From Fidelibacterota bacterium (lineage in GTDB: Bacteria; Pseudomonadota; Alphaproteobacteria; Rhodospirillales; Rhodospirillaceae), in NCBI GenBank assembly GCA_947476895.1, contig CANJRX010000011.1, positions 1 to 62,650 on the forward strand: a DNA stretch of 62,650 nucleotides. Direction: 5' to 3'. A program made the position numbers and the translations under genes. The number at the start of each line of letters is the position of its first letter. Position 1 is the stretch's first letter. The notes beneath the pieces were generated by a model that made no database searches, had not been told where the DNA came from, and was given only the letters and a program-made list of their open reading frames with translations. This document shows positions 40,157-43,788 of this stretch, piece by piece.

Positions 40157-41371
<1,215 letters not shown>

Positions 41372-41391: not shown

Positions 41392-41420
41392 AACGGCGCT
41401 CCGAAAAGGGCGCCGTTTTT
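41392..41420 (+). terminator. Aminotransferase terminator
   Basis: AACGGCGC/GGCGCCGTT with a TCCGAAAA-containing loop, followed by TTTTGTTTG, lies 21 bp after the stop codon. Confidence 0.85.
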
Positions 41421-41445
41421 GTTTGTGCGTGTGAGAAGCGGATAG

Positions 41446-41720
41446 CCCATAAAATTTTCGCCCCTAGGGCGGAGGACCCTAGGGGCGAAAGTTTCCGAGG
41501 GAGGCTTCGACACCTGATTAGACTGGTCGCGGGCTTGGCGCCCTTTGACCGCGGCGAACATCGGGGGGAGGACCCTATTTCGCCTAGTCTACCCTTAGAC
41601 CAAGTGATGGATCGGGGGAGGACCGGGCCATCACGAGTTTTCCAGTTACACCTCGCATCTCTTGCGGGTTTCCGGGGGAGGACCGGTCCGCCGCTTTGTG
41701 CGATGCAACATCTGAGGATT
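41446..41720 (-). ncRNA. Candidate small RNA: four hairpins each exposing a UCCUCC(C/G) loop
   Basis: Four consecutive inverted repeats each close an exactly 7-base loop. Plus-strand loop positions are 41676–41682, 41616–41622 and 41566–41572 (GGGAGGA) and 41470–41476 (CGGAGGA); on the minus strand these read UCCUCCC three times and UCCUCCG once. Stems: GCGG…CCGG/CCGG…CCGC; GTGATGG…CGG/CCG…CCATCAC; GGCGAA…GGG/CCC…TTCGCC; and a 14-bp perfect stem TTTCGCCCCTAGGG/CCCTAGGGGCGAAA. In minus direction the last stem is followed by ATTTTATGG, a fair terminator, and a weak promoter (TTGCAT 41755–41750, N16, TATGAC 41733–41728) lies upstream. The loops complement Shine–Dalgarno sequences, as in alphaproteobacterial cuckoo/CcsR RNAs. 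Plus-strand transcription would instead give GGA loops like CsrA-binding RNAs. Confidence 0.65.
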
Positions 41721-41841
41721 AAGCTACGTCATAACCCTCACTGTTTCCAATGCAATTGCGGAATACCGCTATGCAGCATACGCATGCCTACCGGCGCGTT
41801 ACAACGCACATGCGAAATAAGGTTAACGTCAGAAAATGGCT

Positions 41842-42792
41842 CTAGCCCGCGGTTCTGCGGGGCTCTGAACCCGAAAATACGGAGAATTGGGAGCGAGCCC
41901 GAGCTATCTCGCGAACGAGATAATCTCGGAAAACGGCGACGCGCGCCGAATTCCGAAGCTCTTCCGGGTAAACGAAATAGGCGTCGATGGGCGGACCTTC
42001 CAAATCCGGCAGCACCTGCACGAGGTCGCGCGCTTCCTGCAGGAAATATTCCGGCAAGCCGCCGATGCCGATGCCGGCCTTCACAGCACGATAAATGCCG
42101 TAGAGATTATTCACGCGCAGCGACGTGCGCGGTGCGATGGCGTTCTTGTTCAACATGTCTGACAGCCAGTGCACGGTCGAAACCGGCATGACGCCTTCGC
42201 CGAACAGCACGATGTCGTGGTTCTTCAAATCTTCCATGTCGCGCGGCATGCCGCGCTCTTGCAGATATTCCGGCGACGCATACAGGTTGTGACGCTGCGT
42301 GCCGAGATGACGCTGAATCAAATCCGGTTGCTTGGGTTCATTGAAGCGGATCGCGACATCGGCCTCGCGCATCGCGAGATCTAATTCCTGATCGTCGAGA
42401 CGCAAAGTCACTTCGATGTCGGGATAGGTGCGAATGAATTCCTTCAGGCGGCCGGTGAGCCAAACCGATCCGAATGCAACAGTCGTGGTAACGCGCAAAA
42501 TACCTTCGGCGTTCTCTTTGGTTTCGGTCAGCAGGCTTTCGACGTTGTTCAGCTTGGCAAACACGTCGTGCACGGTTTTGTAGAGAAGATCGCCTTGCTC
42601 GGTGAGGATGAGGCCGCGCGCATGGCGGTGAAACAGGCTGACGCCCAGCGCTTCTTCAAGCGCGCTGATCTGGCGGCTGACAGCCGACTGGCTGAGGTTC
42701 AAGGTTTCGCTGGCGCGTGTGAAGCTGCCGGCTTCAGCCACGGCATGGAACACACGCAGTTTGTCCCAATCAAGACGCCCGTGTAGAGGCAT
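41842..42792 (-). CDS. LysR-family transcriptional regulator
   Basis: The 316-residue protein has the N-terminal winged helix-turn-helix (LRVFHAVAEAGSFTRASETL, NLSQSAVSRQISALEEALG) and a periplasmic-binding-protein-like effector domain (GILRVTTTVAFGSVWLTGRL; DVAIRF; GIGIGGLPEYF). It lies 54 bp downstream of trxB on the same strand, so it may be co-transcribed and respond to redox state; that is inference. The candidate small RNA starts about 120 bp after its stop. The effector is unknown. Confidence 0.92.
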   Translation of the reverse strand: MPLHGRLDWDKLRVFHAVAEAGSFTRASETLNLSQSAVSRQISALEEALGVSLFHRHARGLILTEQGDLLYKTVHDVFAKLNNVESLLTETKENAEGILRVTTTVAFGSVWLTGRLKEFIRTYPDIEVTLRLDDQELDLAMREADVAIRFNEPKQPDLIQRHLGTQRHNLYASPEYLQERGMPRDMEDLKNHDIVLFGEGVMPVSTVHWLSDMLNKNAIAPRTSLRVNNLYGIYRAVKAGIGIGGLPEYFLQEARDLVQVLPDLEGPPIDAYFVYPEELRNSARVAVFRDYLVREIARARSQFSVFSGSEPRRTAG

Positions 42793-42846: not shown

Positions 42847-43788
42847 TTAGCTTTCGCCACCCAAGAAGCGATCTGCTTCCAAAGCCGCCATACAACCCGT
42901 GCCGGCGGCGGTAACCGCCTGACGGTAAATGTGATCCTGCACATCGCCCGCGGCGAAGACGCCGGGGATATTCGTGCGCGTCGAGTCCGCGGCCGTAATG
43001 AGATAGCCGTTCTCGTCCATGTCGAGCACGCCCTTGAACAACTCGGTGTTCGGCGTGTGGCCGATGGCGACGAACACGCCGTCGGTCTTGATCTCTTGCG
43101 GCGCGCCGCTCTTGATGTTCTTCAGGCGCACGCCCGTGACAGTGAGCGGGCCTTCTTTGCCCAACACTTCGTCCACCGCGGAATCCCAAACCACTTGGAT
43201 CTTGGGATGCTTGAACAGGCGGTCTTGCAAAATCTTTTCGGCGCGGAAGTGATCGCGGCGATGCACCAGCGTCACTTTGGTCGCGTGATTGGTGAGATAC
43301 AGCGCTTCCTCGACAGCGGTGTTGCCGCCGCCGATGACCACGACTTCCTTGCCGCGGAAGAAAAAGCCGTCACAGGTCGCGCAAGCCGACACGCCAAAGC
43401 CTTGGAATTTCTTTTCAGACTCGAGGCCCAGCCAACGCGCTGAAGCTCCGGTGGTCACAATCACGGTGTCGGCGGTGTAGGTGTCGCCGGAATCGCCGGT
43501 GAGCGTGAAGGGGCGTTTGGACAGATCGATTTTCACGATCAGGTCATGCATGACCTTGGCGCCCACGTGCTCTGCCTGCTTCTGCATCTGCTCCATAAGC
43601 CAGGGACCCTGGATCACGTCCGGGAAGCCGGGATAGTTCTCGACGTCGGTGGTGATGGTCATCTGGCCGCCGGGCTGCATACCCGCGACGACGATGGGCT
43701 GAAGGCTCGCGCGGGCGGCGTAAATGGCGGCGGTCAGGCCGGCGGGGCCGGATCCGAGAATCAGAACTTTGGTATGGGTGTTCGTCAT
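42847..43788 (-). CDS. trxB: Thioredoxin reductase
   Basis: This FAD enzyme transfers electrons from NADPH to thioredoxin. The 313-residue product has the FAD-binding GSGPAGLTAAIYAARA, the redox-active CATC (residues 136–139) in SACATCDGFFF, the NADPH-binding GGGNTAVEEALYL and the C-terminal FAAGDVQDHIYRQAVTAAGTG. It is divergent from an Lrp-family regulator gene (264-bp region) and upstream of lysR. Confidence 0.96.
   Translation of the reverse strand: MTNTHTKVLILGSGPAGLTAAIYAARASLQPIVVAGMQPGGQMTITTDVENYPGFPDVIQGPWLMEQMQKQAEHVGAKVMHDLIVKIDLSKRPFTLTGDSGDTYTADTVIVTTGASARWLGLESEKKFQGFGVSACATCDGFFFRGKEVVVIGGGNTAVEEALYLTNHATKVTLVHRRDHFRAEKILQDRLFKHPKIQVVWDSAVDEVLGKEGPLTVTGVRLKNIKSGAPQEIKTDGVFVAIGHTPNTELFKGVLDMDENGYLITAADSTRTNIPGVFAAGDVQDHIYRQAVTAAGTGCMAALEADRFLGGES

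Follow-up and report, generated by a model that had tools for sequence, protein, structure and literature searches.

A LysR-linked array of four hairpins with near-identical anti-Shine-Dalgarno loops in a Rhodospirillaceae genome

Results

A hairpin array downstream of a trxB-LysR gene pair

The window analysed here, a stretch of 62,650 nucleotides from contig CANJRX010000011.1, carries on its minus strand a gene pair consisting of trxB (thioredoxin reductase, 42847..43788; named from its sequence, without a family search) and a gene for a 316-aa LysR-type regulator resembling LsrB/VtlR (41842..42792; Pfam PF03466 and PF00126). Downstream of the pair, on the same strand, lies an array of four hairpins (41447-41714), on which an aminotransferase gene, called aatA (40169..41371, plus strand), converges from the other side; aatA is followed by a terminator-like hairpin of its own (41393-41421, plus strand). 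The four hairpins have unlike stems but heptaloops that are almost the same, UCCUCCC in three and UCCUCCG in the last, each closed by at least 3 bp: hairpin 1 at 41664..41694 (loop 41676-41682), hairpin 2 at 41604..41634 (loop 41616-41622), hairpin 3 at 41553..41584 (loop 41566-41572) and hairpin 4, which doubles as the terminator, at 41447..41492 (loop 41470-41476), its 14-bp stem giving way to AUUUUAU. The 11-mer GGTCCTCC(C/G)CC is present in four copies. Direct reading thus agrees with the initial annotation, which had described four minus-strand hairpins with a fixed 7-base loop, a constant 11-mer within differing outer stems, and a final 14-bp stem followed by ATTTTATGG; its coordinates too were right.

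Three further minus-strand elements separate these hairpins. Between hairpins 2 and 3 stands a nearly invariant one, GUCUA-AGGG-UAGAC (41587..41600), and beyond hairpin 3 a spacer hairpin that has no anti-Shine-Dalgarno loop (41525..41550; helices 7 and 8 of the alignment described below). A AAGCCUCCCU motif directly 5' of the terminator (41498..41507) is a fifth anti-Shine-Dalgarno-like site, and resembles an RNA core found across the order. The AGGG of the small hairpin could pair with CCCU; moreover, GUCUAAGGGUAGAC (41587-41600) and a second GUCUA (41513-41523) offer two alternative pairings. Coverage of CCCU by AGGG and the alternative GUCUA pairings would together make a possible switch for hiding the loops.

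Alignment of relatives also reveals, upstream of the hairpins on the minus strand, a conserved 5' end, CAGATGTTGCATCGCA (41699..41714), and a putative promoter, TTGGAA-N18-TAGCTT (41721..41750). With a start at about 41713, judged from the -10 site, and an end set by the terminator with the AUUUUAU that follows the last hairpin, the predicted transcript is about 264 nt long (41450..41713, minus strand). Farther upstream, at about -72 to -58 of this start, is a candidate LsrB/VtlR-type box, ATGCGTATGCTGCAT, of the form ATGC-N7-GCAT (41771..41785, minus strand). A UGUUGC-NN-GCA-like element lies near the position of the 5' end in part of the order; a loose pattern for it has matches in 55 of 131 regions, some of which are plainly chance hits. 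With its predicted promoter and terminator, the array makes a convincing small-RNA gene.

Neither clustering nor folding of the loops decides the matter. The GGTCCTCC sequence occurs five times in the whole window against an expected 1.5 (maximum of 4 in 100 shuffles), and four of the five copies fall inside 214 bp. By a weak criterion, however, in which any 7-nt loop on a stem of at least 3 is accepted, 4 of 100 Markov-simulated windows held three identical heptaloops within 300 nt; loop clustering alone is therefore weak evidence, and the case rests on comparison. The minus strand of the array has a better folding energy than its shuffles (z -3.66), and the plus strand likewise folds better than most (z -2.73; 2 of 200 equally good). 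When the window sequence is folded by itself, loop 4 is closed by a U-G pair that leaves CCUCC, and the minimum-energy structure mixes hairpins 1-3, so that hairpins 1 and 3 are missing as drawn (the centroid has both); for this reason the comparative structure was adopted.

The folding of the plus strand bears on an alternative raised at the outset, that this is the active strand and that its GGGAGGA loops sponge a CsrA/RsmA protein. The loops of the plus-strand hairpins carry GGA, and in that setting GGA resembles a CsrA site. Against this, the conserved promoter-like sites and the box are arranged for minus-strand transcription, and on the plus strand the terminator-like hairpin of aatA stands ahead of the array. 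A search for csrA, whose positive controls in E. coli, B. subtilis and T. maritima worked, detected the gene in a single one of 61 genomes, with no hit in the home genome of the window (97.7% complete). A plus-strand sponge is accordingly disfavoured, and we give it almost no credence. The sole csrA carrier among the 61, G027, is a 1.3 Mb genome of the same family by its kinship label, and lacks a LysR match at E 1e-80.

Loops are conserved while stems covary

A DNA search of 99 genomes returned matches at E 0.1 in 31, mostly short, and strong matches (E ≤5e-17) in nine same-genus genomes, the home genome aside. We aligned nine loci, that of the window and eight others, leaving out the incomplete G017 locus, the decayed one of G010 and those with one or two copies. 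UCCUCCC is kept in all nine at loops 2 and 3, in 8/9 at loop 4, where the exception is the window itself with its UCCUCCG, and in 6/9 at loop 1. The stems behave otherwise: 17 of 46 stem pairs have changed on both sides with pairing retained, and in hairpins 2 and 3 alike 4 of the 6 outer pairs show such double-sided changes. The named structure is paired in 96.6% of 409 cells, and its combination of pairing and covariation was reached by none of 500 shuffles; versions of the structure slid along the alignment gave 2-5 double-sided pairs. Since the stems change and the loops stay constant, selection acts on the loop. The initial annotation had argued this from the window, and had expected related loci to conserve the loops; the 17 covarying pairs and the invariance of loops 2 and 3 bear out the first point, and the loop counts across the nine loci the second. 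The four-hairpin array is confirmed as real, and conservation is what decides it. Two decayed arrays, L038 (G017) and L039 (G010), have loops that now read GGCCTCCCCCG or similar, with one and zero intact copies of GGTCCTCC, respectively.

Loop number varies among relatives. In 81 loci, copies of GGTCCTCC within 750 nt past the LysR gene numbered zero in 62, one in 5, two in 5, three in 3 and four in 6. In a tree of 34 LysR proteins all three- and four-copy loci, the latter thus confined to one clade, belong to a supported group of eleven (98/95), which includes the decayed loci of G017 (one copy) and G010 (zero). In a second clade, made up of six loci (96/91), copies number one or two; the LysR tree does not settle how it relates to the first, and elsewhere in the tree copies occur only in G026 (two) and G054 (one). 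With the tree rooted at its midpoint, the simplest reading would be that loops were added within the genus. When loci were named from public records, which was done for the best 80 of 362, eight close relatives of this alphaproteobacterial locus (L115-L118, L124, L125, L129 and L130) proved to be in records titled Candidatus Marinimicrobia; these titles look mislabelled.

The neighbouring regulator and its box

Compared with known structures, the LysR protein matches best the cryo-EM structure of Agrobacterium tumefaciens LsrB (9HH1, E 2.3e-91; runner-up, 5.4e-33). Cysteines are described as important for redox sensing by the Agrobacterium protein, and the window protein has none, so that it is unlikely to sense redox state as LsrB does and probably responds to a different signal. 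A search of 99 genomes found relatives of the LysR protein in 87. Outside the home genome there were 87 such places, of which 80 were taken and the 7 weakest left out; in each of the 81 loci the LysR gene is preceded on its own strand by a trxB relative, at a distance of 15 to 407 nt. Directly downstream of such a pair is also where AbcR1 and AbcR2 are found in rhizobia: accounts of Agrobacterium place both genes downstream of the LsrB-type regulator, those of Sinorhizobium between that regulator and an arsR-type gene, and AbcR1 (AbcR2 in Brucella) is described as activated by LsrB/VtlR.

Within the first 450 nt past the LysR gene, the palindromic box ATGC-N7-GCAT is present in 91 of 130 distinct regions, compared with a mean of 2.2 and a maximum of 8 in mononucleotide shuffles and with 1/81 in lysR coding sequence; these regions (130 of at least 200 nt, from 131 distinct among 161) are mutually related and so are not independent trials. 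The spacer between ATGC and GCAT is exactly 7 in 93 of 95 matches. The box of the window is similar in form, and in distance from the predicted start, to the LsrB box reported for nfeR1, TGCA-N6-GCAT at -72 to -60 of PnfeR1 (PMC10746234); the box given for abcR1 differs in form, being GCAT-N3-TG-N3-T at -61 to -49. Location and candidate promoter box together point to the LsrB/VtlR-AbcR circuit and not to cuckoo/CcsR.

An RNA core linked to LysR genes across the order

In many genomes of the order this LysR gene is followed by a nearly invariant core, ACGUCUCCCAGACGUGAAGCCUCCCUGUU, together with a terminator (L064, L074, L143 and L149 are among the loci that have it); a loose form of the core is found in 40 of 81 loci. 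Of 66 core sequences we set aside 4 that were truncated and a further 15, near-duplicates or others, and from the remaining 47 we built a covariance model, R1, comprising a ACGUCUCCCAGACGU hairpin, GCCUCCCUGUU and the terminator; array sequences of the window's own genus were excluded by design. Of 289 genomes taken from the class, 130 have an R1 match, and of its best 30 loci 20 have a LysR gene nearby and 10 lack one. Applied to 53 chosen sources, R1 produced six clear matches (E ≤1.1e-5), none of them in 16 same-genus loci; neither these loci nor the window array matched even at E <0.2. Because R1 misses the array, we do not claim that the array belongs to the order-wide RNA at the level of sequence. 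The two nevertheless have in common their place, the box, the UGUUGC-NN-GCA-like 5' element and an end made up of AAGCCUCCCU and the terminator, from which we infer that the array may be a local, heavily rebuilt form of the order-wide LysR-linked gene.

None of twenty LysR-linked loci, of which 13 have the core, reached the gathering score of any Rfam family. Below the cut-offs, seven loci come closest to SorX, suhB and SorY: against SorX (cut-off 46.6) the R1 core scores at most 39.8 bits, in LysR loci belonging to other orders of the class, and four loci of the order give at most 29.0 bits with SorX and 32.9 with suhB, again below cut-off. In L063 (G075) and L068 (G095) a tandem pair of AGCCTCCCTGT cores and ATGC-N7-GCAT boxes follows the LysR gene, and R1 matches G087 three times, twice on contig 4 and once on contig 7; these tandem cores recall the tandem AbcR1/AbcR2.

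Comparison with known RNA families

AbcR1 and AbcR2 (alpha-r15, RF02345) of rhizobia, Agrobacterium and Brucella resemble the array in adjoining lsrB/vtlR and trxB and in displaying UCCUCCC, the anti-Shine-Dalgarno seed of AbcR (PMC3712013), in a hairpin loop. As described, however, AbcR shows this loop once and has between its hairpins another motif, GUUCCC/UUCCCCUC, whereas the array has four such loops, and GUUCCC/UUCCCCUC is absent from its 268-nt sequence. RF02345 matched nothing in the home genome and gave no hit above cut-off in the 289 class genomes, in a search in which no positive control matched either. NfeR1 (alpha-r14) is alike in another way, one identical anti-Shine-Dalgarno motif being set in several hairpins with unrelated stems (PMC10746234); it is reported to be 115 nt long with three hairpins bearing CCUCCUCCC, while the array is about 264 nt with four bearing GGUCCUCC(C/G)CC. 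The suhB/MmgR (alpha-r8, RF00519), SorX (RF02784) and SorY (RF02651) RNAs have, like the array, a CCUCCCU module just 5' of the terminator, but their models are without multiple loops; RF00519 scores 16.2 bits on the window array, the cut-off being 41. Membership of the array in ar15, ar14 or suhB was set aside, the Rfam scans being negative.

The initial annotation had proposed an expanded cuckoo-type RNA. Cuckoo RNAs (CcsR1-4 of Rhodobacter) have anti-Shine-Dalgarno loops in two hairpins, with CCUCCUCCC; the array has four loops, in the context GGUCCUCCCCC, and CCUCCUCCC is absent from its 268 nt. CcsR1-4 are reported to be co-transcribed with an upstream gene, ccaF1 (PMC8307010), whereas the gene upstream of the array encodes the LysR regulator. 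No family matched the array at Rfam gathering score, and ar14 gave nothing at E up to 10. Taken together, the missing motif, the different upstream gene, the four hairpins and the lack of an Rfam match do not support membership in cuckoo/CcsR. A true CcsR or NfeR1 RNA might still have been relocated here, an idea that draws on the like architecture of a fixed anti-Shine-Dalgarno motif in several unlike hairpins, as described for NfeR1 (PMC10746234); with place and box fitting the LysR-linked RNA of the order, with no Rfam match and with CCUCCUCCC absent, we judge it very improbable. By analogy, the array is best read as working like NfeR1 and AbcR, the cuckoo label fitting only in part; it looks like an enlarged form of those rhizobial small RNAs that shut down translation of many mRNAs together.

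Candidate target sites

The home genome has an hfq gene. Each of the four loops can pair with GGGAGGA. The multivalent RNA first envisaged, able to bind the Shine-Dalgarno regions of many mRNAs, is supported as a capacity. Predicted pairing of a loop with GGGAGGA is worth -12.2 kcal/mol, against -9.8 for a 16S tail. The pattern GGGAGGA-N3..10-ATG occurs at 31 sites in the home genome, its reversed counterpart at 10. From 30 of these 31 sites we counted 25 ORFs of at least 60 aa, and as controls 13 ORFs from 16 of 17 AAGGAGA sites (one duplicate dropped) and 12 from 15 AAGGAGG sites. A signal peptide was called in 22/25 ORFs after GGGAGGA and in 9/25 after the canonical sites (Fisher p 3e-4), by a simple Sec-/Tat-like rule that was tightened after a first look; the first version had given 22/25 against 8/13 (p 0.09). 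Pfam labels of these candidate targets include a peptidase M28, a solute-binding protein, two tannases, a creatininase, three zinc-type dehydrogenases with Tat-like starts and two beta-lactamase-fold proteins.

In relatives (33/33 sites taken in G009, 27/27 in G012, 23/23 in G041 and 17/25 in G059, yielding 32, 20, 10 and 8 ORFs; G016 and G019 were left out) the picture is mixed: signal peptides follow GGGAGGA in 24/32 ORFs of G009, in 7/20 of G012, and in 9/18 of two close genomes of a loop-less genus taken together, several of whose genes are common to both. Pooled, loop-bearing genomes have 53/77 and the loop-less ones 9/18, a difference that is not significant (p 0.17). The bias of GGGAGGA sites towards genes for exported proteins is an exploratory one, significant only within the home genome; given the late tightening of the rule and the mixed relatives, we treat the exported-target class as a lead.

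These sites also bear on whether the loops would pair with mRNA at all. Four near-identical loops suit titration, and the array might be a sponge or decoy that sequesters a C-rich RNA-binding protein, or else a partner RNA rich in G. A precedent is described in Caulobacter, where CrfA is a G/A-rich sponge of an anti-Shine-Dalgarno RNA family (PMC12559287), and the nearly invariant internal AGGG hairpin suggests an RNA that controls its own loops. But the placing of GGGAGGA sites before ATG, and their bias in the home genome to exported genes, fit mRNA pairing better, and we consider a sponge or decoy unlikely.

Discussion

The reading that we prefer, and think likely, is that the array specifies a LysR-controlled trans-acting RNA that blocks the Shine-Dalgarno sites of many mRNAs through four redundant loops. 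One small-RNA gene would be transcribed from the minus strand by its own promoter, and the neighbouring LsrB/VtlR-type LysR protein would switch it on through the ATGC-N7-GCAT box. In the resulting RNA, stems of unrelated sequence would hold the four near-identical anti-Shine-Dalgarno heptaloops open, with CCUCCCU preceding the terminator, and each loop could pair with a GGGAGGA ribosome-binding site. With the help of Hfq, such pairing would block translation of many mRNAs, the best sites in the home genome being mostly those ahead of genes for exported proteins. Repetition of the loop may serve redundancy or raise capacity.

In open-licence PMC literature, the matches listed included no title dealing with a four-loop form, or with an RNA of the AbcR or NfeR1 type in Rhodospirillales. 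The locus ties a multi-loop anti-Shine-Dalgarno RNA to LsrB/VtlR far outside the rhizobia, and its study also points to a widespread RNA core past the LysR gene which falls below every Rfam cut-off in the loci scanned, as well as to a connection, open to testing, of a single loop sequence with the ribosome-binding sites that serve exported proteins. Since members of the genus carry from one to four loops, the question of why such RNAs repeat one seed becomes testable by comparison.

More speculatively, and as a possibility to which we incline less than not, the trxB-LsrB locus might carry, in much of the Alphaproteobacteria, an ancestral module of regulator and small RNA, marked by one ATGC-N7-GCAT box, of which rhizobial AbcR would be just the branch known best and the four-loop form of this genus a dedicated secretome switch. 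If so, the RNA in this freshwater genus would have grown to four near-identical loops, and ribosome-binding sites ahead of genes for exported proteins would have drifted towards GGGAGGA, the sequence that pairs perfectly with its loop.
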